The position numbers were made by a program, and so were the translations under genes. From the NCBI GenBank assembly GCA_020049295.1, contig JAIFLC010000034.1, positions 1-38,353 on the forward strand: 38,353 nt of DNA. Direction: 5' to 3'. Positions 12,771 to 38,309 of this stretch are shown piece by piece. This DNA is from Bacteroidota bacterium. GTDB lineage: Bacteria; Bacteroidota; Bacteroidia; Bacteroidales; UBA12077. The notes under the pieces were generated by a model. It did not search any database and was not told where the DNA came from. It worked only from the letters and a program-made list of their open reading frames with translations. The first letter of the stretch is position 1. Each line of letters begins with the position of its first letter.

Positions 12771-14589
12771 ATGGATAGGAATTCGATTATTGGAATTATA
12801 CTAATTGCGGGTATTTTGGTTCTTTATAGTATTTTAAGTCAACCATCTAAAGAGCAGATTGAGGAGGCAAAACATAAAAGGGATTCATTAGAACTGGTGC
12901 ATCAAAACCAGCTAATGGAGGAAAAAGCAATGGAAGAAGCCAGAGCCCTAATGCCAAAACCCGAGATTAAAGAGGATGAAATAGGTACAGATCAATTAAA
13001 AAGCTTATATGGCAATTTTGCTGAAGCAGCTGAAGGAGTGCAAAACTTTATTACAATAGAAAATGATTTAATGAAAGTTAAATTAACCAATAAAGGTGGA
13101 CGTATTTATTCGGTAGAACTTAAACAGTTTAAAACATATACACAACAACCCTTATTATTATTTGATGGTGATTCAACGGTTTTTGGATTGAACTTCTTTT
13201 CACAAAACCGAAGCATTATTACAAACGACTTGTTTTTTAGCCCAATAGAAGAAAATTCTTCGTATGTTATTGAGAATGATTCAAAATCTATAAAACTGAG
13301 ATTGAATGCAGGTGAAGGAAAATACATTGAATATGCGTATACAATGTATCCAAATAGTTATAAAATAGATTTTGATATTAATTTTGTTGGTATAAATGAA
13401 GTAATTGCAGGTAACTTAAATGTAATTGATCTTAATTGGTCAGTATATTCGCCTCAGCTTGAAAAAGGAGCTAAAAATGAAAATATGTACACCACTATTG
13501 GTTACAAATTTTTTAATGATGAGGTTAATTCATTAACATCCCGTGGAAAAGATACTCAAAAAGAAGAATTAAATGAGAAAATAAAATGGATCTCCTATCA
13601 GCAACAATTTTTCTCTTCAATACTGGTTTCGAAAAACTTTTTTCCAAATGCAGTGATTGAATTTCAGAATTTGAAAGAAGATGATGAACCTGGTAAATAC
13701 TTAAAACATTTTAAATCGACTATTGGTATACCTTTCGAAAATACTGAAAAATATACAGTTGCGTTAGAGTTTTATTTTGGACCAAATCACTTTAATACGC
13801 TTAAGGAATACAAAAATGATTTTGAACGTATCGTTCCTTTGGGCTGGGGAATTTTTGGCTGGATAAATAGGTTTGTTGTTATTCCTGTTTTTAATTTTCT
13901 CGATAACTTTAGTTTTTTGAATTACGGGTTAATCATATTGTTATTAACTATTTTTATTAAACTCATTTTATTCCCATTAACTTATAAATCATACCTTTCT
14001 ACAGCCAAAATGAGGGTTTTAAAACCTGAGGTTGATGAAATAGCTAAAAAGTTTCCTAAACAGGAAGATGCTATGAAAAAACAACAGGCAACCATGGCGA
14101 TGTACAAAAAGGCAGGCGTAAATCCAATGGGTGGTTGTATTCCTATGCTTATTCAGTTTATGGGCTGATGATCTTTCTTCGTTTGATTCAATTATTAATT
14201 TACCTTTTACTGTTCCATTCGGATATGGTGATCATGTAAGTTTATTTACCATTTTAATGGCTGTTGCAATGATTTTTACCACTCGAATTAGTACAGCTCA
14301 GATGGGGGATACAAACCAACAGATTCCTGGTATGAAATTTATGATGACCTGGCTAATGCCATTAATGATGATATTCATCTTTAATAGTTATTCATCAGGT
14401 TTGACCTATTATTATTTCTTATCGAACATGTTTACCTTAGGACAAACTTATCTTATGAGTGGTTTTGTTAATGATGAAGAAATCATGCGTAAGATTCATG
14501 AAAATAAGAAGAAACCGGTTGTAAAATCAAAATGGCAGCAGCGTTTGGAGGATGCTGCCAAAAAGAGAGGATATAATCCGAAGAAATAA
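12771..14589 (+). pseudogene. yidC: Membrane protein insertase YidC, interrupted by an out-of-frame internal deletion near 14156
   Basis: ORF 12771..14168 ends NPMGGCIPMLIQ-FMG*; ORF 14131..14589 resumes LWADDLSSFDSIINLPFTVPFGYGDHVSLFTILMA in another frame. The conserved segment between them is missing. Confidence 0.85.
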
Positions 14590-22726: not shown

Positions 22727-23708
22727 ATGCTGCAAGTGAAGGCCTTAGATAAAAAAATGATTTCAGATCTTAAGCAATTAATTGATCAGTCGAAAAATCC
22801 CTTAATTATTACACATTATAATCCAGATGGAGATGCCATAGGATCAATGCTGGCGTTGTATCATTATCTCGTTAAAAAGGGAAAGAATCCATTTATGGTT
22901 TCTCCAAATGATTATCCTGAGTTTTTACATTGGATGCAAGGCAATGATAAGGTGACTGTTTACAAAAGAAACACAGGAACAGTTATAAATGCTTTAAATG
23001 CTGCTGATTTGATTTTTGCTGTTGATTTTAATGATCCTGAAAGAACTGAAGGGTTAGAAAAATATATTAACGAAGCCAAAGGTAAAAAGGTAATGATTGA
23101 CCATCATCCTGAACCTACCAATTTTGCTGATCTGGTCATTTCAGACATAAAATATAGCTCAACTGCCGAAATGATTTTTCATGTTATTGAAAGCCTTGAT
23201 GATGAAAATTTGATTGATAAGGCTTGTGCCGAATGCATTTATTGTGGTATTATGACTGATACTGGATCATTTAATTATAATTCGTCTAATCCATATACCT
23301 ATTATGTTGTTTCAAAATTAATTGGTTTGGGCATTAATAAAGATCGCATATATTGGAATGTTTATGATAACTTTTCGGCTGACAGAATGCGTTTGCTGGG
23401 ATATTGCCTGTATAAAAAGATGGAAGTATTTCCCGAATATCGAACTGCATTCATCAGTTTAACGAAAAAGGATATACAGGAGTTTAAGTTTGCACCCGGC
23501 GATACAGAGGGATTTGTAAATTATCCCTTATCAATAAAACGTATAAGGTTTACAGCTAGCTGCAAACAAAATTGCCGAAGATTACTTTAATGGAGGTGGA
23601 CATCTTAATGCTTCTGGTGGTTATTCATATTCGTCATTAGATGAAACGCTAAAAAAATTCAGAGATTTATTGCCCAATTTTAAAACTGCGCTAAATGATT
23701 TCTTATAA
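22727..23708 (+). pseudogene. NrnA-like DHH/DHHA1 phosphoesterase with an out-of-frame internal deletion near 23556
   Basis: N-terminal ITHYNPDGDAIGSM and MIDHHPEP; ORF leaves frame after NYPLSIKRIRFTA. ANKIAEDYFNGGGHLNASGGYSYSSLDETLKKF continues in another frame to stop 23706-23708. Confidence 0.85.
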
Positions 23709-25285: not shown

Positions 25286-26257
25286 TTAATATGATTGGTA
25301 TTCGTATCGATATTGCATTCTGTATTTGTAAGAAACATAATAAACCTCAACTTTTTCAAGTAATCCTTTCGAGCTATATGTATATGTTTTTTGGGAGTAT
25401 TCAGTAGGATCATCATCATACCATCTTTCCTCTATCAGATTGCCATTAGAATCGTACTTATACGTATTATTGATATAAAAATTTCCTTTTGGTTGTTCAC
25501 GTTTAACTTCAATAATGTTCCCTTTTTTATCATATGAATAGTTCTCCATATAACTAAAACTTTCTAAATCGTATTTGGTTTTTTGAGTCATTAAATTGCC
25601 GTCAAAAACAAAATAAAACTGTTCAGAAATTTTTCCATTAACATCATATTCAACAGTTTCAATAATATTATTGTTTTTATCATAGACATTAATTATTTTA
25701 CCTAATACTCTTTTGTCCTGATTTAAAATGGTAACAGTTGATTTATTGCCATTATACTCAAATGAACGAATCTGAAGTATATTATCTAGCGTATCAGTTT
25801 TGATAATTTCCTGCAGACGATCTTTAGAATCATAATTGTATTTTATTAATTCATAATCACTTCCATTAAATCTTTCTTCTGATATCTTTTTGCCCTTATT
25901 ATCGTATGTGAAATTTTGCTTAAGCAAAATTTTGCCTTCCGAAACTTTGTTATTAATATATTCAATTCTATTTTCTTTATTATCGTATTTATAACTAAGT
26001 TTTTGATCAATACTACCTTTTTTCCCAGCAGAATAATAAATTTCTTCAATTATATTTCCTTTGTGATCGTATTTTTTTGAAAAATTCTTGTAACCATCCT
26101 TTTTAGGTTTTCCCTTTTCGTACTTATGATTCCATTGGGTTTGTACCTGAATACGGTTTTTTACAAGATTTTCTTTCCAATTAATTTCGCCTGGCAGTTG
26201 AGCATTTGCCATACAGGTAATAAAAGAAAAGGTAATAAAAAATACTAATTGTTTCAT
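25286..26257 (-). CDS. Secreted YD/RHS-like repeat protein
   Basis: Signal peptide MKQLVFFITFSFITCMANAQ; repeated YDNKGNIIE / YDSKDRLQEI / YDKNNNIIETVEYD / YDSNGNLIEERWYD units. Confidence 0.75.
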   Translation of the reverse strand: MKQLVFFITFSFITCMANAQLPGEINWKENLVKNRIQVQTQWNHKYEKGKPKKDGYKNFSKKYDHKGNIIEEIYYSAGKKGSIDQKLSYKYDNKENRIEYINNKVSEGKILLKQNFTYDNKGKKISEERFNGSDYELIKYNYDSKDRLQEIIKTDTLDNILQIRSFEYNGNKSTVTILNQDKRVLGKIINVYDKNNNIIETVEYDVNGKISEQFYFVFDGNLMTQKTKYDLESFSYMENYSYDKKGNIIEVKREQPKGNFYINNTYKYDSNGNLIEERWYDDDPTEYSQKTYTYSSKGLLEKVEVYYVSYKYRMQYRYEYQSY

Positions 26258-26478
26258 TTTCAGATTATTCAGTTTGTATTCCATAAATCTAGCTATCAAA
26301 TATAAGGCAAAAAAAAATAATTTCAAGTAGCTGTTTATCTCTATTGCAAAAATTGTGCATAATTTACTTTTTTATGAAAAAGAATTCAATTGGTTTTAAT
26401 ATCTAACCATTCTAATAAGTTATAAAAATAAATTGACTTCGTTTTTTTTATATTGTATCTTGGAGTTTAAAATAAATA

Positions 26479-26556: not shown

Positions 26557-29547
26557 ATGAAAAGAAAAATCGGTTTAATAATTGTTTTTGCAATATTATT
26601 TTGCAACTTTGTTTTCTCTCAAATACCCGAATCTTTTAATTACCAAGCGGTCTTGCGCAACAATTCCGGCGAACTATTAAAAGACCAAAGTGTTACTATC
26701 CAGATTTCAATTATTAATGGTTCTTCATCAGGATCAACAATTTATCGCGAACAACATAGTAAAACTACAAATAACTTTGGAATGATTGACCTTAAAATTG
26801 GAACAGGAACAAGTAATTTAGGTTCTTTTAGTGATATTGTCTGGAGTACTTTATCAAAATTTATTAAAATTGAAGTAAATACTGGCACTGGATTTATTGA
26901 TCTCGGTACCTCACAAATATTATCGGTACCTTATGCATTATATTCAAAAACGGCCGAAAATATTGATAAAGATGTACTTTATTTTACCGATACAGATACG
27001 TTATTTGCTGTAAAAGACAGAGAAGGCAATGTGGTTTTTGTTGTTTTTCCTGATGGGGCAAAGGTTATAACAAATCCAAATGCAAAAGGATCTGTTGGCG
27101 GTTTTGCCGTTAGTGGTCGCACACCAGCAAAGCAAGAAGAAGATTACTTTCAGATTACTCCTGACAGTACTCGTTTTTATATTAATGAAATTTCAGAAAA
27201 AGGCAGCGTTGGAGGATTTGCAGTAAGTGGACGAACACCGGCAAAATCAACCTTAAATGATTATTTAATTGTAACAAGCGATAGTACGCGAATATATGTA
27301 AACGATACATCAACAACAAAAGGCACTGTTGGTGGATTTGCAGTAAGTGGACGCACACCGGCAAAAGGTGAATCACAAAAGTTTTTAGATTTGACCAAAG
27401 CAAACTATTTTATTGGTCATGAGGCTGGAAAATCGAATACAGATGGATTATATAATTCGTTTATTGGGTATAAATCCGGATATTCAAATACAATAGGTGA
27501 AAGAAATGTGTTTTTAGGTTACTATTCCGGATTTTCAAACATTGATGGAGCAGGCAACTTGTTTATTGGCGATTCCTCAGGATATTCAAATATAGATGGT
27601 TTTTACAATATCTATTTAGGTAATTTAAGTGGCAAATACAACACATCAGGGTTTCAAAATATTGGTATTGGTGTAAAGGCCGGATACAAAAATTCAACAG
27701 GGAACCGTAATGTTTTTATTGGTACATTAACAGGACAAGAAAACACCGAAGGTGAAATGAATGTTTTTATCGGTAATGCTGCTGGAACTTTTAATACAAT
27801 TGGTAAAAGCAATGTTTTTATTGGTCGTACCTCAGGGTATAAAAATTCCTCAGGTGAAGATAACATAATGATTGGGAATGCTGCCGGACTTGAAAATACA
27901 ACAGCAAGCAATAATATTTTTATGGGTAATTCGGCCGGAAATAAAAACTTAACAGGGAGTGAAAATATATTTATTGGTAAAGAAAGCGGATTTTCGAATA
28001 CCGAGGGTAAACTTAATGTATGTATTGGTTATCAAAGTGGCTACTCACTTACAACTGGTAACTATAATTCTTATCTGGGATTCTGGACTGGTTATCATAA
28101 TACAATAGGTACTTTTAATACTTTTATTGGTGCACAAGCAGGAATGTACAATACCGAGAGTAATAATAATACTTTCATTGGGTCCTATGCTGCTGCTGAC
28201 GATACCTGTGGTTGGGATAATACATTTGTAGGTGGTGCTGCTGGAAGATATAGCTCGGGGTATAATAATACATTTTTAGGTTCAATTGCAGGCGAATCTA
28301 CTCTTTACTCACACGATAATGTTTATGTAGGATTTCTAACTGGACGAAATAACCTATATGGAAATTATAATGTTTTTATTGGTTCAGCCACTGGGTATTG
28401 GACAAATGGTGATAACAATTTATTCATAGGTAGGTCCGCTGGTGAATATGCACAAGGCAGTAATAATATATTAATTGGATTTAGAGCTGGTTTTTATAAT
28501 AATAGTTCCAATAAACTGTTTATTGAAAACTCAGATTCAGACTCAACACTGGCTTTGATATGGGGCGATTTTAATGAGAATATTTTACGGTTTAATGGAT
28601 CCGTTGCATTAGGTGGTTTACCTATAGAAAATACGAATTTAACCATAAATAACGATGCAAGCAAAGGAGCAATTGCAGTAAAAGGTATTGGTGATACATA
28701 TAATTACTCACAAGTTAATCTATATTCGAACGAAGGACCAATTTCAAGATTATATGAAATTAACCATAACAAATCAAACAATTTTAGCATTGTTTATTAC
28801 GATGGCACCGATTGGAATACTCGTTTTGTTATAAATACACAGGGAGATTTTACCTTCAATGGAAATCAAACAATTAGTAGCGATTCCACATTTGTAAATA
28901 TTTACCCAAATAGCGGTGAACTTGGACGGAAATCTACAATAAATCTACATGGAACCTTTGGTACGGGTACAATTACCGATTATGGAACCAGAAGTTTAGC
29001 CCAGATTCAAGCTGGTTGTAACGATAACGAAGCATGGGGAGGAGCATTTTTACGCATACTCGGTATTACTACTGATGGAGGTACTCCAACTGAATGGATG
29101 AGAATAAATACTGAAAATGGCAATGTCGGTATTGGCACGGATAGTCCTGATGAAAAACTTGTTGTCTTTAATGGTTCAACAACAGGAAAATATACAAGCT
29201 CTGGCTGGACTCATTCATCTGATCTCAGATTAAAAGAAAATATTAAACCGATTTCTAATGTTCTTTCAGACATTAACAAGTTAGAAGCAGTTCAATTCAA
29301 TTTTATAAATGATCAGGCAAAAACGCCACAATTGGGTTTTATAGCTCAAGATGTTGAAAAAATATTTCCCGAATTAGTAATTACAGATAATAGCGGCTTT
29401 AAAAGTATAGCCTACGATCAGTTCTCTCCGCTATTGGTAAAAGCAATAAATGAACAGCAAACACAGATTGAAATATTGAAAACAGAAAACAATGAGTTAA
29501 AACAAAAACTAAATGAAATTATACTCTTACTTACAACTGAGAAATAG
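26557..29547 (+). CDS. Fibre-like secreted repeat protein A with Peptidase_S74-type C-terminal chaperone
   Basis: Signal peptide; IPESFNYQAVLRNNSGELLKDQSVTIQISI N-domain; 3x GGFAVSGRTPAK; ~21x 17-aa NxFIGxxxG repeats; C-terminal SDLRLKENIKPISN...LGFIAQDVEKIFPELV. Confidence 0.88.
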   Translation: MKRKIGLIIVFAILFCNFVFSQIPESFNYQAVLRNNSGELLKDQSVTIQISIINGSSSGSTIYREQHSKTTNNFGMIDLKIGTGTSNLGSFSDIVWSTLSKFIKIEVNTGTGFIDLGTSQILSVPYALYSKTAENIDKDVLYFTDTDTLFAVKDREGNVVFVVFPDGAKVITNPNAKGSVGGFAVSGRTPAKQEEDYFQITPDSTRFYINEISEKGSVGGFAVSGRTPAKSTLNDYLIVTSDSTRIYVNDTSTTKGTVGGFAVSGRTPAKGESQKFLDLTKANYFIGHEAGKSNTDGLYNSFIGYKSGYSNTIGERNVFLGYYSGFSNIDGAGNLFIGDSSGYSNIDGFYNIYLGNLSGKYNTSGFQNIGIGVKAGYKNSTGNRNVFIGTLTGQENTEGEMNVFIGNAAGTFNTIGKSNVFIGRTSGYKNSSGEDNIMIGNAAGLENTTASNNIFMGNSAGNKNLTGSENIFIGKESGFSNTEGKLNVCIGYQSGYSLTTGNYNSYLGFWTGYHNTIGTFNTFIGAQAGMYNTESNNNTFIGSYAAADDTCGWDNTFVGGAAGRYSSGYNNTFLGSIAGESTLYSHDNVYVGFLTGRNNLYGNYNVFIGSATGYWTNGDNNLFIGRSAGEYAQGSNNILIGFRAGFYNNSSNKLFIENSDSDSTLALIWGDFNENILRFNGSVALGGLPIENTNLTINNDASKGAIAVKGIGDTYNYSQVNLYSNEGPISRLYEINHNKSNNFSIVYYDGTDWNTRFVINTQGDFTFNGNQTISSDSTFVNIYPNSGELGRKSTINLHGTFGTGTITDYGTRSLAQIQAGCNDNEAWGGAFLRILGITTDGGTPTEWMRINTENGNVGIGTDSPDEKLVVFNGSTTGKYTSSGWTHSSDLRLKENIKPISNVLSDINKLEAVQFNFINDQAKTPQLGFIAQDVEKIFPELVITDNSGFKSIAYDQFSPLLVKAINEQQTQIEILKTENNELKQKLNEIILLLTTEK
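27085..27366 (+). repeat. GGFAVSGRTPAK stalk repeats in protein A (3 copies)
   Basis: Core codons begin at 27097, 27211 and 27331; periods 114 and 120 nt. Confidence 0.92.
27403..28530 (+). repeat. 17-aa beta-roll-like repeat array in protein A
   Basis: Consensus xxNxFIGxxxGxxNxxG, about 21 units by hand alignment. Confidence 0.9.
29218..29547 (+). other. Peptidase_S74-like intramolecular chaperone domain
   Basis: SDLRLKENI motif, LGFIAQDVEKIFPELV, YDQFSPLLVKAINEQQTQIEILKTENNELKQKL coiled coil. Confidence 0.88.
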
Positions 29548-29563
29548 AAATAAAACCAAATGA

Positions 29564-29600
29564 TAAAAAAACCTGACATACTCTTCTGCCAGGTTTTTTT
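29564..29600 (+). terminator. Rho-independent terminator between fibre genes A and B
   Basis: AAAAAACCTGaCA-tactcttc-TGcCAGGTTTTTTT. Confidence 0.78.
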
Positions 29601-29699
29601 GTATTAATCAATATTAACATTGATTTAAATAGTAGAAACCAACTTGCTAAATTCAAAATAATAAGATATCTTAATCCTCAAACAATTAAATTTAAAACT

Positions 29700-32600
29700 A
29701 TGAGAAAGTTTATATTTTCTTTTAGCTTCTTGATTTTTATAGCAATATCTTTAATCGGAATTGCTCAGGTACCTGAGGCTTTTAATTACCAAGCAGTAAT
29801 AAGAAATAGTTCGGGTGAAATTATTAAAAATCAATCCGTAATTATCAGAATTTCAATTATTGATGAATCAATATCGGGCCCAACAATTTTTAGTGAGACC
29901 CATAGTAAAACAACCAATAATTTTGGTATTGTAAATTTGCAAATTGGAAATGGCAGTCCTGTTATTAGTGCATTCCCTTCAATAGATTGGAAAAATTCTG
30001 CTAAATATATCAAAGTTGAAGTTAATATAGGCAGCGGATATATAGATATGGGTACTACAAAACTTTTATCGGTTCCCTATGCATTGGTTTCGAAGGATGT
30101 AATAAATAATAACGATGCCGATGCTGACCCGGAAAACGAACTACAAATAGTATCAATTTCTAATGATACAATTTTCTTAAGCAATGGAGGTTTTGTAAAA
30201 CTACCTGCCGATCAGGTTGAAGATGCAGATGCTGACTCAACCAATGAAATACAGGATTTAAATCTAACAGCAAATGTGTTGACCATAACCAACAAAGCTA
30301 ATCCTGCACAGATAAGCTTGGCTCAATATGTTGGAACCAATACAGATGAGCAACTATTGAATTTGACAGGAACAGATTTAACCATATCAAATGGTAATAC
30401 TGTTGATTTAAGCCCTATACAAGATGGAGTAAATGATGCAGATGCAAATCCTACAAATGAATTACAGAGTCTTACCTTAATTGGCGATACCTTAAAAATC
30501 AGCAATAGTAACCAGGTTATCTTTCCATATGATAGTAGTCGATGGGCTGCAAATGGCAATAAACTATATTATAATACTGGTAATGTAGGAATAGGAACAA
30601 ATGATCCTTCAAGTATGCTCGAAGTAAAATCATCAGGTACAACAGGAGCATTGTTTCAGGTAATAAATGCCAATAACGATACAGTTTTTGCAGTTTATCC
30701 TGATGGAGTAAAGGTGTTTGTAGATCCGGATACAAAAGGAAAAGTAGGCGGATTTGCAGTTAGTGGACGAACACCGGCCAAAGCAGGTGAAAATGTAGAC
30801 TATTTCAGGGTTACACCCGACAGTACGCGAATATATGTAAACGATTCAATAGGTACTAAGGGCAAGGTTGGTGGATTTGCAGTTAGTGGTCGTACCCCAG
30901 CAAAGGGAGGAATAACAGAGTATTTTTCGATTAATAAAGACAGCACTCGTATTTATATAAATGATACATCAAGTATAAAAGGAAAAGTAGGAGGATTTGC
31001 AGTAAGTGGTCGTACACCGGCAAAGAGTCAGGGTAATGAGTACCTATTTGTAAATAGAGATAGCACACGTATTTATGTAAACGATTCATCAATTACAAAG
31101 GGTAAAGTAGGCGGATTTGCAGTAAGTGGACGAACACCTGCTAAAGGAGAATCTACCAAATTTATGGATATGACCAGAGAAAATTATTTTATTGGTCATG
31201 AAAGTGGTCAAAAAATTACAACAGGTAAATATAACTCAACACTTGGTTATCAAAGTGGATATTCTCTTCAGAATGGAGAAAGTAATTCATTTATTGGTTA
31301 CCAAAGTGGTTATAATACCAACTCAGGGCTCGGAAATCTATTTGTAGGTTACCAATCGGGCTTTGTAAATCAAGGGGGTAATTATAACACATTTGTTGGT
31401 TATCAGAGTGGTTTGTCAAATTCTTCTGGTATTAACAACACATTCTTAGGTAGTTTTTCAGGATTATTAAATACTATTGGAAGCTACAATACATTTGTAG
31501 GAGATTCTGCAGGTTATAAAAATTTAAATGGAACTCAAAATTCATTTTTTGGAGACAAAGCCGGATTAAATAATGTAGATGGATCAAATAATATATTTAT
31601 TGGAAATAGATCTGGTTATGGCAATTCTGGAGGCGATTCATGTATTTTTATAGGGAACCAGAGTGGATTTGGAAACAACATAGGTAATTCTAATATATTT
31701 ATTGGCAATAGTAGTGGTTATCATAATTATAATGGGGAAATGAATATTTTTATGGGTTATTATTCTGGATACCAAAATGATCAAGGTTCATATAACGTAT
31801 ATATGGGATATAAGTCGGGTTTTAATAATTATTCAGGTTCGATGAATCTTTTTCAGGGTTTCCAAGCAGGATATTCAAATTTTAATGGATCTTATAATGT
31901 TTTCTTAGGTTACCAGGCTGGCAGATCTAATTATAATGGGTCTGAAAACGTTTTAATAGGTTATAAAGCAGGAAAGTCTTTAACAAGCGGAGCTGCTAAT
32001 GTTTTTATTGGCTATAGTGCTGGTGAAAATGCCACGGGAGGTATATATAATACTTTTATTGGTTTTGAAACAGGAAAAATAAATTCATCAGGTGAATCAA
32101 ATAATTTCTTTGGATTTCAAGCTGGAAATAAGAATACAATAGGAGGGTCTAATTTATTTATTGGTAATCAGGCAGGTTATGAAAATAATGAAGGTACACA
32201 TAATGTTTTTATTGGTAATGCTTCAGGATTTAATAATAAAAAGGGTGGTTCAAATGTTTTTATTGGAGTTGAAGCTGGTCGAGATAACGATTCAGGATTA
32301 TATAATGTTTTCATTGGTAGGGCTGCCGGATTTAACCATACTTCAGGAAATTACAATGTATTTCTTGGAATGGGCACTGGTCATGGAAATATAATAGGTA
32401 ATTATAATACATTTATTGGACCTGATGCAGGAATAAATGTTGCTTCAGGTAACAAGAATGTAGTTATAGGATATAAGGCAGGTAGATATGTTACTGGAGA
32501 TAGTAAACTTGTGATTGCTGATAATGATACAGTAAACCTGATTTATGGTGATTTTGTTAATCAACAGGTTGTAATTAACAAACAGCTTGGAATAAATGTT

Positions 32601-32945
32601 ACTCCATATCTTGTAGGTTCATATGCACTAAATGTAAACGGAACAATGAAATTGGGCCCTAATGGATCGACGATAAATAACATCATTAGACATACTTATA
32701 CAAGCGTAGGTACGGGAGATATAATTGGTGACGGCAGTTTTAAATACACATTTAGTGTTTCTGGAGCTACTGTTGGTTCAACAGTTATGGTTTCTCCCCA
32801 AATTGAGCTACCCGATGGAATCGTTATTAGTTATGCAAGAGTATCTGCTGCCGAAACTGTGGAAATCAAAATTCAGAATACAAAGAGTACAACTATTGAT
32901 TCTGCATTAGGAGGCTTAAGCTGGTATGTTACTATTATTGAATAA
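29700..32945 (+). CDS. Fibre-like secreted repeat protein B
   Basis: Signal peptide; VPEAFNYQAVIRNSSGEIIKNQSVIIRISI; DADADPENELQ-type acidic repeats; 4x GGFAVSGRTPAK; ~25x 17-aa repeats; beta-rich C-terminus with no S74 motif. Confidence 0.87.
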   Translation: MRKFIFSFSFLIFIAISLIGIAQVPEAFNYQAVIRNSSGEIIKNQSVIIRISIIDESISGPTIFSETHSKTTNNFGIVNLQIGNGSPVISAFPSIDWKNSAKYIKVEVNIGSGYIDMGTTKLLSVPYALVSKDVINNNDADADPENELQIVSISNDTIFLSNGGFVKLPADQVEDADADSTNEIQDLNLTANVLTITNKANPAQISLAQYVGTNTDEQLLNLTGTDLTISNGNTVDLSPIQDGVNDADANPTNELQSLTLIGDTLKISNSNQVIFPYDSSRWAANGNKLYYNTGNVGIGTNDPSSMLEVKSSGTTGALFQVINANNDTVFAVYPDGVKVFVDPDTKGKVGGFAVSGRTPAKAGENVDYFRVTPDSTRIYVNDSIGTKGKVGGFAVSGRTPAKGGITEYFSINKDSTRIYINDTSSIKGKVGGFAVSGRTPAKSQGNEYLFVNRDSTRIYVNDSSITKGKVGGFAVSGRTPAKGESTKFMDMTRENYFIGHESGQKITTGKYNSTLGYQSGYSLQNGESNSFIGYQSGYNTNSGLGNLFVGYQSGFVNQGGNYNTFVGYQSGLSNSSGINNTFLGSFSGLLNTIGSYNTFVGDSAGYKNLNGTQNSFFGDKAGLNNVDGSNNIFIGNRSGYGNSGGDSCIFIGNQSGFGNNIGNSNIFIGNSSGYHNYNGEMNIFMGYYSGYQNDQGSYNVYMGYKSGFNNYSGSMNLFQGFQAGYSNFNGSYNVFLGYQAGRSNYNGSENVLIGYKAGKSLTSGAANVFIGYSAGENATGGIYNTFIGFETGKINSSGESNNFFGFQAGNKNTIGGSNLFIGNQAGYENNEGTHNVFIGNASGFNNKKGGSNVFIGVEAGRDNDSGLYNVFIGRAAGFNHTSGNYNVFLGMGTGHGNIIGNYNTFIGPDAGINVASGNKNVVIGYKAGRYVTGDSKLVIADNDTVNLIYGDFVNQQVVINKQLGINVTPYLVGSYALNVNGTMKLGPNGSTINNIIRHTYTSVGTGDIIGDGSFKYTFSVSGATVGSTVMVSPQIELPDGIVISYARVSAAETVEIKIQNTKSTTIDSALGGLSWYVTIIE
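30106..30480 (+). repeat. DADADPxNELQ acidic modules in protein B
   Basis: NNDADADPENELQ, EDADADSTNEIQ, NTDEQLLNL, NDADANPTNELQ. Confidence 0.7.
30735..31145 (+). repeat. GGFAVSGRTPAK stalk repeats in protein B (4 copies)
   Basis: Core codons begin at 30747, 30870, 30990 and 31110. Confidence 0.92.
31182..32526 (+). repeat. 17-aa beta-roll-like repeat array in protein B
   Basis: About 25 units, e.g. NYNTFVGYQSGLSNSSG, SYNVFLGYQAGRSNYNG. Confidence 0.9.
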
Positions 32946-33075
32946 TCATTTGCATCTTATCAATTTCTATTTAATTGATTTTTAGTCGTTAATTCTTAAA
33001 ATAACTACGATTAATAATTCCTCTTGATTTTTATATACGGAAACGTTATCTTTATTTCTTATTTTTTTAAATCTA

Positions 33076-35688
33076 TTGAATATGAGAAAGATAATTGTTT
33101 TCAGAAAAAAAATAATAAAAATAATTCTGATTTGTTTGTTCCTTATTTTTAATGGCAATACCATTATTAAGGCGCAAAATGTTACAGTTACCGATAACGA
33201 GATATATTCAGCGGATAATTCTGCTATGCTCGATGTGTATTCGACTACAAAAGGTATGTTAGTGCCAAGGCTTACAACAATGGCAAAGGATACCATACAT
33301 TTACCTGCTACTGGACTAATTGTATATGATACCGGATATAATAGCTTTTTCTATTATAATGGTACGAATTGGGTTAAAATACCTCAGGTAAATTCTTTAG
33401 CAGGGTCAGAATCAGCCTTATTTGCTGTAGTTAATGCTGCTGGCGATACTGTTTTTGCAGTATATAACGATGGTGTTAAAGTAACAGTGGATGAAGGATT
33501 AAAAGGAACAGTAGGAGGTTTTGCAGTTAGTGGACGAACCCCCGCAAAATTAGGCGAAGAAATAAATTATTTTCATGTAACTCCAGATAGTACAAGAATT
33601 TACATAAACGATACTTCATCAACCAAAGGAACAGTCGGCGGTTTTGCAGTAAGTGGACGCACACCGGCAAAGGCTGGAGAATTTGATTATTTACGAGTAA
33701 CACCTGATAGTACGCGCGTTTATGTAAACGAAAGTTTAACTAAAGGAACAGTAGGTGGTTTTGCCGTAAGTGGAAGAACTCCAGCAAAAGGAGGAATAAA
33801 TGAGTATTTTTCGATAAACAAGGACAGTACCCGAATTTATATAAATGATTCATTAGCTACAAAGGGAAAAGTGGGCGGATTTGCAGTTAGTGGCCGAACA
33901 CCGGCAAAGAGCCTAGGTAACGAGTACTTATTTGTAAATAGCGATAGTACACGAATCTATGTAAACGATTCATCAATTACAAAAGGATCGGTTGGAGGAT
34001 TTGCTGTAAGTGGCCGCACGCCAGCAAAAGTAGGATCTGCAAAATTTATGGACATGACCAAAGAAAACTATTTTATTGGTCACGAAGCTGGCAAATCAAA
34101 TACCTCCGGACTTTACAATTCGTTTATAGGATATCAGGTAGGTATTACCAATACCACCGGAAGATATAATTCATTCATGGGTTACAAAACAGGAAATGCG
34201 AACCTTGATGGAGAAAGCAATGTGTTTATTGGTAACGAGAGTGGTTATACCAATCAAACTGGTGATAATAATACATTTATGGGTTACAGGGCTGGTTATA
34301 CCAATAAAGTCAGTTATAATTCATTTATTGGTTACCAGGCAGGATATTCCAATGATACTGGTCAATACAACTCCTTTATGGGTTACAATGCTGGTTATTC
34401 AAACACCAAGGGAAATAGTAATGTTTTTATAGGAAATGAAAGTGGTAGGACTAACAGCGAAGGAAATCATAATGTTTTCCTTGGATTTAATAGTGGTTAT
34501 ACGAATGCGACCGGACATAATAATACTTTTCTGGGACATGTTGCCGGGTTTACTAATTCGACTGGTTCAAATAATGTTTTCTTGGGCGATAGTTCTGGTT
34601 ATAGTAACATATCAGGGGAGCAAAATATTTTCCTTGGGAATGGTAGCGGTAAAGCAAACTCCCAGGGTAATTACAACGCATTTATTGGTTATGAAGCAGG
34701 ACACTCAAATACCACAGCAAATAATAATGCATTTATTGGATATCAGGCGGGTCGGTATACTAAAGTCGGCAGCAAAAATGTCTTTATAGGATACCAGGCA
34801 GGGTATAAAAACGTTGGTAGTGTTGAGGGTCCAACCCAACCTGGAAATAATAATATTTATATTGGTGATCAGACTGCATACAATAATACTACAGGTCGAA
34901 GTAATGTATATATTGGGCATAATGCTGGATTAGGAAGTAATCCAATTAATACCGGTAATGCTCCACGATTTAATGTTTATATTGGTTATCAGGCAGGGTA
35001 CTTAGAATACCAAGGAAGAAACAATGCTTTTATTGGTTATCGGGCAGGATATTCAAATTATTCTGGTGGTTTTTCTACTTTTATTGGCGACCAGGCCGGG
35101 TACACCAACTATAGCGGCAGTAATAATACATTTATTGGTAACCAGGCTGGATATTCCCACTATTCAGGTAATAGTAATGTAAATATAGGAGATTATGCAG
35201 GCTGGTCGAATGTAACTGGTGACGGAAATGTTTTTCTGGGCTATTATGCCGGTTTTTACGAAACAGGTAGCAATAAGCTGTTTATTGATAATCAAAACAG
35301 AACTAATGAAAACCTTTCAAGGGCCAATGCCTTAATTTACGGGGAATTTAATGCTACCACAAGTAGTCAACTTTTTAGGATTAATGGTAAAACTGAATTT
35401 AATGGTAGTGTGTCAATGCCAATTACAACGGTGACTGCAACCACTACACTTGGTGCAACTCATTATACCGTTTTAGTAAACAGTGCCTCTGCCGTTACAA
35501 TTAATTTACCTACGGCTACTACATGTTCAGGCAGAATTTATGTGATTAAGAATATCAGTTCCGGAGCTGTTACTATTGATGGAAATTTAACTGAAACTAT
35601 TGATGGTTCAATTACCAATACCATATCAACTCAATTTGAAAAGAGAGTTATTCAATCAAATGGAACAAATTGGTTTATTATAAACTAA
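33076..35688 (+). CDS. Fibre-like secreted repeat protein C
   Basis: Distinct N-domain AMLDVYSTTKGMLVPRLTTMAKDTIHLPATGLIVYDTGYNSFFYYNGTNWVKI; 5x GGFAVSGRTPAK; ~22x 17-aa repeats; C-terminal TATTTLGATHYTVLVNSASAVTINLPTA tip. Confidence 0.87.
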   Translation: MNMRKIIVFRKKIIKIILICLFLIFNGNTIIKAQNVTVTDNEIYSADNSAMLDVYSTTKGMLVPRLTTMAKDTIHLPATGLIVYDTGYNSFFYYNGTNWVKIPQVNSLAGSESALFAVVNAAGDTVFAVYNDGVKVTVDEGLKGTVGGFAVSGRTPAKLGEEINYFHVTPDSTRIYINDTSSTKGTVGGFAVSGRTPAKAGEFDYLRVTPDSTRVYVNESLTKGTVGGFAVSGRTPAKGGINEYFSINKDSTRIYINDSLATKGKVGGFAVSGRTPAKSLGNEYLFVNSDSTRIYVNDSSITKGSVGGFAVSGRTPAKVGSAKFMDMTKENYFIGHEAGKSNTSGLYNSFIGYQVGITNTTGRYNSFMGYKTGNANLDGESNVFIGNESGYTNQTGDNNTFMGYRAGYTNKVSYNSFIGYQAGYSNDTGQYNSFMGYNAGYSNTKGNSNVFIGNESGRTNSEGNHNVFLGFNSGYTNATGHNNTFLGHVAGFTNSTGSNNVFLGDSSGYSNISGEQNIFLGNGSGKANSQGNYNAFIGYEAGHSNTTANNNAFIGYQAGRYTKVGSKNVFIGYQAGYKNVGSVEGPTQPGNNNIYIGDQTAYNNTTGRSNVYIGHNAGLGSNPINTGNAPRFNVYIGYQAGYLEYQGRNNAFIGYRAGYSNYSGGFSTFIGDQAGYTNYSGSNNTFIGNQAGYSHYSGNSNVNIGDYAGWSNVTGDGNVFLGYYAGFYETGSNKLFIDNQNRTNENLSRANALIYGEFNATTSSQLFRINGKTEFNGSVSMPITTVTATTTLGATHYTVLVNSASAVTINLPTATTCSGRIYVIKNISSGAVTIDGNLTETIDGSITNTISTQFEKRVIQSNGTNWFIIN
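33502..34029 (+). repeat. GGFAVSGRTPAK stalk repeats in protein C (5 copies)
   Basis: Core codons begin at 33514, 33637, 33754, 33874 and 33994. Confidence 0.92.
34066..35297 (+). repeat. 17-aa beta-roll-like repeat array in protein C
   Basis: About 22 units, e.g. SYNSFIGYQAGYSNDTG, SNNTFIGNQAGYSHYSG. Confidence 0.9.
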
Positions 35689-35723: not shown

Positions 35724-38309
35724 ATGGCAACAAAAAAAACAACACTCACCAGTAATAAAAGAGGTAAACAAATTACTCAACTTAGAATTCCTAAAAGAGA
35801 CTACAGCACTCATCTTGTTGTGCAATTTCGTGAAGGAATAAATGTACCATATAGCAAAGATGCTGCAAAATCAATTAAAGATTTTAAAGTCGGACCATGG
35901 GAAAAATTAGAAAAAAAGTATCCGGGTATAACTATTAGCCCTCTTTTTTCGAGCGTAAAACCTGAAATACTTAAAAGACTGATCAGTAAAGCTAAAGAGA
36001 TGGACCCAACATACAAAGAAGGCCGATTCTTTCAGTATTTCAGTGTTGTTTGTCCTGTTGAATCAAAACCACTTGAAATTCTTGAAGAACTTTCAGAATG
36101 GAATAATATTAAAACAGTTAAAATAGCCAGTAAATATACACATCCATCGGTAAGTTATAATGATGAAGATAGAGCTGGAAATCAAAATTATTTAGATGAA
36201 GCAACAATCTCAGGTGTTGGAATTGGAGCTAAAAATGTTTGGGATAGTACCACTATTTTAGGAAGCGATGGTGATGGTATTAGATTTGTTGATATTGAAA
36301 AAGGTTGGACACTTGACCATGAGGACTTAGGATTAGCTCCTTCAACTTTGATTGGAGGTACAATTGATGATACAGCTCGTGCAGATGGAACATCAGTACT
36401 TGGAATAATATGTGCTACTGATAATGGAGACAACTGCATTGGTATAGCTCCGAAATCTGCAGTTAAAGTAATTGCATATTCCGATACTCCATCGATTACT
36501 GAATATTCTCTTGAAGATGCAATTATTTTAAGCTTAACATACCTGGGATTTGGTGATGTATTACTAGTCGAAGCGCAAAAAACACTATCCATTCCTGGAA
36601 ACGATTATGATGGATGCAATGTTCCTGTTGAAGTTGATCCAAATGTTTTTGATGCCATCCGGCTTGCAACTGCACTTGGAATTGTAGTTATTGAACCCGG
36701 AGGTGATGGTGATAATTCAACCACATTTGTCAATTTTGATGAATTGCAGATTGGTGGTCAATATATACTTTACCCAAGTTCTACTCAATACCATGGCGAT
36801 TCAGGAGCAATATTTGTTACAGCTGCACACTCGGATGTTACAGCTGTAAGTGCAGTAAATACACATGAGATTATGCCTTGGGCCCCCAAAGGAGAACGCA
36901 TTGATTGCTATGCTTGGGGAGAATTTATATATACTTTATCATCCGATTCTTCAGGTGCTATCGACCAATATACCGATACTTACAGAGGAACTTCTGGAGC
37001 CGCTGCTATAATTGCCGGAGCAGTTTTAAACATGCAAAGTATGGCAGTTGCTGGACAGGGATACAGATTTAGCCCATTACAAATTCGCAACATCCTTCGT
37101 GATTCCACATACGGTACGCCTCTTTCTCACGATCCGGGCATAGGAACGTTGGAAAGTCTTCCTATTTATATGCCCAATCTTTATCAATTTGCTGAGCATG
37201 CTTTAAATACTTTACCAGATATATATTTGCGCGATTTTGTTGGTGATAATGGAGAACCACATGAGGGTGCTATGGCCTGGAGTCCTGATATTATTATTAA
37301 GAATAGTGAAGTTCCTGATCCAGCCCAATACTTTTTAATTGATAATCCAGATAATAATTCATTAAGCGATAATCCAGCCCCTGGAGCAAATTGCTATTTG
37401 TATTTTAGGGCGCTTAATAGAGGAGGAATAACTGCAACAGGAGTTAAGGTTCGAATTTTTTATACTGATCCATCTACTTTAATTACTCCTCAATCTTTAA
37501 TTGAAATAGGGGTATTCGATTTTCCAGATATTCCAACAGGTGATATTTTAACTTTATCAAGCGCACAATTATGGACTGCTCCAAGCACTGCCGGACATTA
37601 CTGTTTTGTTGCGTTTATTACTTGTGATCAGGACAAGTATTTCGATCCAATGGGTCTTGTGGATTATTTAACAGCCAATCCTACAAGTTGGACATGGAAT
37701 ACATATTTTGATTTTATTCGAAATAATAACAATGTAACCTGGAAAAATTTTGATATTGTTGAGATGAAGAAAAGTTCTTCAACTCCTATACCAGAAGAAG
37801 AACCAGTAGAAGAAGAAGTTATTGCACCAGATCCAGACCCAATTCAAGAAGAAGATCCAATTAACGAAAACGAACCAACACCCGGACAAGAACCAGGTAC
37901 AGATCCAGAGGAATTACCAAAAGATGGTTGGTTAAGATTAGACTTCTTTTCGCCAGGATTACCAGATAGAGATCAAAAAATGAGTCTTGAGGTACTTTCT
38001 AAATTACCTAAAGGAGTTAAGGTTTTACTTCAAATTCCAATTGCTTGGAAAAAAACCGTATTTAGAGGATCTCCTTATGTTCTTCATAATAAAAAAAGAA
38101 AAGTTGGATTTGCTCCAATCAAACCGTTAGGTAAATCAAAATTAGAAAATATCACATTCAGGGCCAATTCTAAAACTGCATTAAAATTATTTGTTCATGT
38201 GCCTGAAAAGCTGAAAAAACAAAGCTATATTATTGCTGTAAGGCAGATGCTCGAAGGAAAAGAAGTTGGTAGATTCACATGGAAACTTGTTCCTCCCAAA
38301 AAACGTTAA
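35724..38309 (+). CDS. S8/subtilisin-fold protein with degenerate catalytic motifs and an acidic Pro/Glu linker
   Basis: DGIRFVDIEKGWTLDHEDL (Asp region), RADGTSVLGIICATDNGDNCIGIAP (His region, HGT replaced by DGT), YRGTSGAAAIIAGAVLNMQ (Ser region); no N-terminal signal peptide. Confidence 0.82.
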   Translation: MATKKTTLTSNKRGKQITQLRIPKRDYSTHLVVQFREGINVPYSKDAAKSIKDFKVGPWEKLEKKYPGITISPLFSSVKPEILKRLISKAKEMDPTYKEGRFFQYFSVVCPVESKPLEILEELSEWNNIKTVKIASKYTHPSVSYNDEDRAGNQNYLDEATISGVGIGAKNVWDSTTILGSDGDGIRFVDIEKGWTLDHEDLGLAPSTLIGGTIDDTARADGTSVLGIICATDNGDNCIGIAPKSAVKVIAYSDTPSITEYSLEDAIILSLTYLGFGDVLLVEAQKTLSIPGNDYDGCNVPVEVDPNVFDAIRLATALGIVVIEPGGDGDNSTTFVNFDELQIGGQYILYPSSTQYHGDSGAIFVTAAHSDVTAVSAVNTHEIMPWAPKGERIDCYAWGEFIYTLSSDSSGAIDQYTDTYRGTSGAAAIIAGAVLNMQSMAVAGQGYRFSPLQIRNILRDSTYGTPLSHDPGIGTLESLPIYMPNLYQFAEHALNTLPDIYLRDFVGDNGEPHEGAMAWSPDIIIKNSEVPDPAQYFLIDNPDNNSLSDNPAPGANCYLYFRALNRGGITATGVKVRIFYTDPSTLITPQSLIEIGVFDFPDIPTGDILTLSSAQLWTAPSTAGHYCFVAFITCDQDKYFDPMGLVDYLTANPTSWTWNTYFDFIRNNNNVTWKNFDIVEMKKSSSTPIPEEEPVEEEVIAPDPDPIQEEDPINENEPTPGQEPGTDPEELPKDGWLRLDFFSPGLPDRDQKMSLEVLSKLPKGVKVLLQIPIAWKKTVFRGSPYVLHNKKRKVGFAPIKPLGKSKLENITFRANSKTALKLFVHVPEKLKKQSYIIAVRQMLEGKEVGRFTWKLVPPKKR

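Follow-up and report, generated by a model that had tools for sequence, protein, structure and literature searches.

A stalk repeat in fibre-like proteins of Bacteroidales carries a tripeptide that hardly varies inside one genome but differs between related species

According to the paper describing them, the MAT fibres of Bdellovibrio bacteriovorus are secreted proteins of approximately 1000 amino acids that occur as many paralogues, share a common N-terminal domain and carry either S74 or non-S74 tips (PMC10769870). The discussion of that paper states that the surface element which MAT-type fibres are thought to bind is unidentified. Here we describe a locus in a draft genome of a Bacteroidota bacterium (G000, the source genome; the window is the whole analysed stretch of 38,353 nucleotides, contig JAIFLC010000034.1), which resembles this system in encoding paralogous fibres of about 1000 amino acids (proteins A, B and C) with S74 and non-S74 tips and, in A and B, an N-terminal domain similar to that of MAT. 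It differs from MAT in the strength of the match to the family model NF053851: A reaches 43.6 bits (aa 13-88) and B 26.3 bits (aa 16-93), both under the 60-bit cut-off, and C gave no match to this model. Among the relatives, the cut-off was passed in 1 of 39 genomes, and there only when neighbouring in-frame matches were summed. Going by sequence, the N-terminal domains of A and B are likely related to MAT, and we do not claim membership in the MAT superfamily. The sections of PMC10769870 considered here describe neither a GGFA stalk repeat nor a genome-specific signature. The features of the locus are as follows.

25286-26326, minus strand: RHS/YD-repeat protein flanking the array; together with the upstream FKBP, FKBP, DHH and NDK genes it marks the same chromosomal site in eight congeneric genomes
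26557-29547, plus strand: fibre protein A, 996 aa; hydrophobic N-terminus, MAT-like N-terminal domain, lead-in, three stalk units, GNxFIGxxAG head repeats, S74 domain, heptad-like tail
26593-26820, plus strand: MAT-like N-terminal domain of A (NF053851, below cut-off)
27085-27438, plus strand: stalk units A1-A3, cores at 27097-27132, 27211-27246 and 27331-27366
27121-27129, plus strand: tripeptide a-b-c as exemplified by core A1 (codons 9-11, reading TPA); the signature is made up of these codon positions in every core
29218-29379, plus strand: S74 chaperone domain of A (PF13884, 60.9 bits)
29700-32945, plus strand: fibre protein B, 1081 aa; MAT-like N-terminal domain, lead-in, four stalk units, head repeats, tip without S74
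29742-29981, plus strand: MAT-like N-terminal domain of B (NF053851, below cut-off)
30735-31217, plus strand: stalk units B1-B4, cores at 30747-30782, 30870-30905, 30990-31025 and 31110-31145
33076-35688, plus strand: fibre protein C, 870 aa from a TTG start; different N-terminal domain (SAMLDVYSTTKGMLVPRL type), lead-in, five stalk units, head repeats, tip without S74
33502-34101, plus strand: stalk units C1-C5, cores at 33514-33549, 33637-33672, 33754-33789, 33874-33909 and 33994-34029
35724-38309, plus strand: S8 subtilase (PF00082) downstream of the array

A, B and C look like fibre-type adhesins. The S74 domain (aa 888-941 of A) scores above the 22-bit gathering score of PF13884 Peptidase_S74 and was found in A only, with no Pfam S74 match in B or C. 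The tips of the three proteins differ from one another in sequence, and variable tips are visible. The head of A matches PHROG tail spike and virion structural families, that of B matches phrog_6002 and phrog_4636, and the head of C also has PHROG matches. The lead-in of A is of the LFAV..DGNVVFVVFPDG type. Protein C has an in-frame ATG at 33082 besides its TTG start, and its N-terminal type is also found in other family members. Given the S74 domain and the resemblance to MAT, the proteins would be expected to trimerise and to be displayed at the cell surface. Two further weak MAT-like N-terminal domains were seen in G000 (C203:7617-7832 and C175:11993-12214), with no stalk unit found there by the repeat search, and the stalk repeat may therefore not be needed by all MAT-like fibres.

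Two reading frames elsewhere in the window are irregular. The yidC gene is split into two overlapping ORFs in different frames (12771-14168 and 14131-14589), a frameshift that is possibly an assembly error of the draft genome. The ORF of the DHH-type phosphoesterase (22727-23590) encodes 287 aa with an unusual tail, compared to 367 aa in G017 and G007, and a frameshift near its 3' end is possible.

The first-pass annotation of this DNA had reported a 12-residue core that is invariant in 12 of 12 copies while the DNA of every copy is different. This was confirmed, since the degenerate pattern for GGFAVSGRTPAK has 12 exact matches on the plus strand between 27097 and 34029 (three in A, four in B and five in C; expected number 0 from 100 shuffles), with 12 identical peptides encoded by 12 distinct 36-mers. 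The reported repeat of about 40 aa in three, four and five copies also stood, with a unit length of 38-41 aa, but the tail DSTR[IVF]Y[IV]N ascribed to every unit is present only in the nine non-terminal ones; the last units (A3, B4 and C5) lack it and lead into NYFIGHE.., the start of the head repeats. Across its 209 contigs G000 has two further stalk genes (L010 and L011), each truncated at the end of a contig and each contributing three units, which brings the genome to 18 of 18 identical cores from 18 distinct 36-mers. Simple Nei-Gojobori counting over these 18 copies resulted in pN 0.005 and pS 0.56 for the core versus pN 0.16 and pS 0.73 for the DSTR block; the small pN of the core reflects multi-step codon paths, as amino-acid differences are absent. 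With silent sites saturated, the codon analysis agrees with the earlier view that the core owes its preservation to purifying selection at the peptide level and not to copies made recently.

No Pfam or NCBIfam model covers the repeat, so the initial impression that no family with a described function accounts for the motif held up in these searches. Sequence and profile searches found no relative of the unit in the PDB, and a keyword search of the literature, covering open-licence papers, found no description of the repeat. AlphaFold2 monomer models of a four-unit stalk of 217 aa and of a two-unit segment of 80 aa are of low confidence (pLDDT 54 and 59, respectively), and in both of them a YFxVTPDSTRIYV hairpin is the only formed element; their quality does not allow the tripeptide to be located as exposed or buried. 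The conserved DST of the DSTR block would presumably fit a D-S/T type bacteroidal O-glycosylation sequon.

The assumption that the whole 12-mer is universally required had to be given up when relatives were compared. In 322 units from 16 genomes of one genus (G000 and 15 congeneric genomes) the near-universal frame GGFA[VI]SGR...K is kept, but congeneric species swap residues 9-11 (positions a, b and c), and they do so nearly uniformly per genome. Depending on the genome, the tripeptide is TPA, TPT, SPT, SPN, NPN, SPS, NPS, NPT or TSV. It reads TPA in 18 of 18 units of G000 and TPT in 49 of 51 units of its sister species G002, SPT in G017 (44/44), SPN in G016 (43/43), SPS in G010 (39/39), NPN in G006 (15/16) and NPS in G012 (5/5). 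The core thus divides into a structural frame of approximately nine residues and a genome-specific signature of three. More surprising than the invariance itself is that it holds genome by genome.

Over all 16 genomes, 301 of the 322 units carry the majority tripeptide of their own genome. Tripeptide identity between different proteins amounts to 0.927 within genomes and 0.085 between genomes, and the maximum reached in 1000 shuffles of proteins among genomes was 0.238. The Fst values of the columns a, b and c are 0.99, 0.89 and 0.77, followed by those of the two residues preceding GGF (0.69 and 0.45). O-glycosylation of the tripeptide itself is unlikely, since the NPN genomes have no serine or threonine at positions a to c. 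Exceptions to the uniformity are a lone TPA in G002, which belongs to the orthologue of window unit B1, SPA units in G003, where every SPA or SPG unit lies on one 5.5-kb contig, and mixed c residues in G015 and G018; such units may be relics or binning errors. Minor signatures occur in G015 and G019. The tripeptides of L127 (G003 C481) and of L098 and L099 (CSMAG_2501 assembly) are unlike those of the rest of their assemblies, and the header coverage is 40.7 for L099 versus 14.0 for L087. The signature could serve as a binning check.

Profile A1 had no match in 396 genomes drawn from the phylum. Among 295 genomes sampled across the order, the broader profile A3 picked up the repeat in 47. All 36 units of G042, a member of another family, read KAAKSAFAVRGRSGAK and are encoded by 31 distinct sequences. 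In other families, position b or c varies within a genome, as in G628 (T[GSW]G), G466 (S[QMIL]T) and G573 (S[PQTV]A). The uniformity rule is strictest in the source genus and in G042.

The silent sites do not follow the tripeptide. Where two copies share a residue of GGFAVSGR, they also share its codon with a frequency of 0.42-0.59 if they come from one genome and of 0.45 if they come from different genomes, and silent Fst in the core is mostly 0-0.18, with 0.26 at position a. Since silent sites are equally diverged within and between genomes, recent duplication or gene conversion does not explain the uniformity. The serine codons point in the same direction. The invariant Ser6 of the unit is encoded by AGY in 322 of 322 cases and the serine of DSTR in 231 of 231 (together 553 readable copies), whereas the signature serine at position a is encoded by AGY in 118 units and by TCN in 88, with both codon families occurring within single genes. 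As AGY and TCN are more than one step apart, the signature serine must have been reached more than once, or regained after loss. This pattern in the coding sequences points to many separate substitutions that would have converged on one residue per genome.

Our preferred explanation, to which we assign a probability of about 0.5, is that the stalk would serve as a repeated docking site for one genome-encoded partner common to all fibres. GGFA[VI]SGR...K would supply the structural frame, and the contact face would be the turn-like tripeptide that separates R from K, so that every fibre of a cell might offer two to five copies of this face to a single shared partner. Candidate types of partner are a surface anchor, a factor acting in assembly or maturation, and a binding protein. 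If the surface with which the partner recognises the fibres drifts from species to species, and selection keeps every copy fitted to it, all copies of a genome would be expected to converge on one tripeptide via separate point substitutions. A coordinated change of the signature in many separate copies, without silent homogenisation, suggests selection against one shared counterpart. The first-pass annotation had conjectured an interlocked trimer stalk, a ligand or metal site or a processing tag; the fact that separate genes change together argues against a purely self-contained role of the motif in the homotrimer. The sequences show the repeats, their uniformity per genome, the saturated silent sites, the mixed serine codons and the lack of such a pattern in the rest of the fibres, and from there we infer a surface location (with the S74 and MAT resemblance as its basis, as for a trimeric state), recognition in trans and a single shared partner. 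More tentatively, and in our opinion rather doubtfully, the tripeptide might be a species-specific self code, in which one partner or lattice accepts only fibres with the cell's own tripeptide and the copies (18 to 51 in the better-sampled genomes) would be re-matched by parallel substitution at each change of the code.

A partner gene for the tripeptide was not found; two neighbours of the arrays were tested, an S8 subtilase and a VWA/fn3 protein, and neither fits. The subtilase (also found at L101:16768-18999) has no obvious signal peptide and is embedded in fibre arrays. It was rejected as a general processing partner, being present in 2 of 39 genomes, namely G000 and its sister G002. VWA/fn3-related secreted proteins lie in or beside the fibre arrays of ten congeneric genomes (11 members), several of them ending in a hydrophobic C-terminus, at the following positions among others.

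L108:16259-19498: VWA/fn3 reference protein (PF00092, PF00041)
L122:11075-14320: VWA/fn3-related protein
L132:2743-5988: VWA/fn3-related protein
L120:3275-6658: VWA/fn3-related protein
L106:1237-3582: VWA/fn3-related protein
L107:10993-13998: VWA/fn3-related protein
L116:6542-9019: VWA/fn3-related protein
L134:11855-14203: VWA/fn3-related protein

As a partner, the VWA/fn3 membrane protein was rejected because five motif-bearing genomes (G000, G002, G005, G015 and G019) gave matches to the fn3 region alone and no recognisable complete protein. A PrsW-type intramembrane protease with TPR repeats (PF13367; L124:1152-3125 and relatives in seven genomes) adjoins fibre arrays and in some genomes follows the chorismate synthase gene, and a SpoIIE sensor also lies beside arrays; both likely belong to the neighbourhood only. 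The PADLOC defence models gave no match.

It is also conceivable that no separate partner is involved and that neighbouring fibres of different genes contact each other through their stalk units, each copy matching the majority while the shared tripeptide drifts by species. Such lateral packing would account for the same uniformity statistics. Moreover, the fibre genes form co-directional tandem arrays, with up to about a dozen genes in G002, and the units always lie between the N-terminal domain and the head, that is, at a similar distance from the presumed anchor. However, no observation points to bundling of the fibres, and a change of the tripeptide would have to take dozens of copies through mixed states although nothing drives it. 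We regard lateral packing as unlikely.

The shared-partner reading also has to be weighed against a constraint acting inside each homotrimer, where the optimal turn would differ by lineage owing to temperature, salinity or a general modification. The observed alternatives are similar turn formers, [TSN]-[PS]-small-K, and are compatible with a structural turn. However, nowhere else in the unit, nor in the lead-in, head or tip, is a column fixed by lineage to the same degree. The remaining variable columns of the core and the DSTR block have Fst values of about -0.1 to 0.37, the median Fst is 0.17 in the N-domain, 0.12 in the lead-in, 0 in the head and -0.10 in the C-terminal domain, and the maximum outside the stalk is 0.65, in the N-domain. 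No other part of the fibres shows genome-fixed residues to the degree of the tripeptide. In the GFGV sister unit of the same fibres, which is free to vary, tripeptide identity is 0.091 within versus 0.094 between genomes (n=19), i.e. there is no genome effect. Furthermore, congeneric genomes with saturated silent sites differ sharply, and an internal constraint as the sole cause appears improbable to us.

Repeat families usually owe their likeness within a genome to homogenisation, either by duplications that are recent and specific to the lineage or by gene conversion that is still going on, and B and C clearly share repeat arrays. Gene conversion would be recognised by silent sites that are more alike within than between genomes, but they are as different within as between, and TCN and AGY serines are mixed. 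In addition, flanks and N-terminal domains show orthology from genome to genome, and the tripeptide does not. Seven genome comparisons yielded 68 units whose flanks resemble a unit of the other genome more closely than any unit that their own genome has in a different protein; in 67 of these 68 the tripeptide differs from that of the cross-genome match. In the N-domain tree the paralogues of one genome are scattered; accommodating the three G000 rows takes three changes on supported branches, the nearest N-domain of protein A being from G019 (SPT) and that of the L010 gene from G002 (TPT). The syntenic species tree of eight genomes requires at least five signature changes. At the sensitivity of this analysis, silent sites, mixed serine codons and orthologous flanks rule out homogenisation as the main cause, and we consider a decisive contribution from it very improbable. 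A prophage origin, with the array as a tail-fibre locus and the motif as an element of phage assembly, is scarcely credible. The head and S74 parts do match PHROG tail-fibre and tail-spike families, but housekeeping genes of the chromosome flank the array, eight species share the locus in synteny, and searches of 2.9 million IMG/VR contigs and of 50,697 phage records yielded no relative of the stalk unit.

The building blocks of these proteins, i.e. S74 fibres, MAT-like N-terminal domains and roll-like heads, are known or near-known. Protein A shares its C-terminal S74 domain with the endosialidases and phage tail fibres that carry this intramolecular chaperone (PF13884), and the heads match PHROG tail spikes; unlike them, the genes described here form chromosomal multigene arrays, and B and C have no S74 domain recognised by Pfam. 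The GNxFIGxxAGxxNTxG head repeats resemble what we take to be the YadA-type left-handed beta-rolls of trimeric autotransporter adhesins. In contrast to the type Vc proteins, A, B and C show no Pfam match to the YadA anchor or head, and their C-termini consist of S74 with a heptad-like tail, or of tip domains, instead of a YadA-type membrane anchor. In the LPXTG-sortase and PEP-CTERM-exosortase systems, many unrelated cargo proteins per genome carry one short motif that is served by one cognate factor. Unlike these sorting signals, the fibre motif is internal, is present in two to five copies per protein and varies nearly species by species. What is unusual is a short signature that is fixed across the paralogues of a genome via separate substitutions and is different in the next species, as would be expected if many surface proteins depend on one co-evolving partner. 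Such a signature might offer a handle for finding the surface element of MAT-type fibres, and it may serve as a sequence code for assigning fibres to cells in metagenomes.
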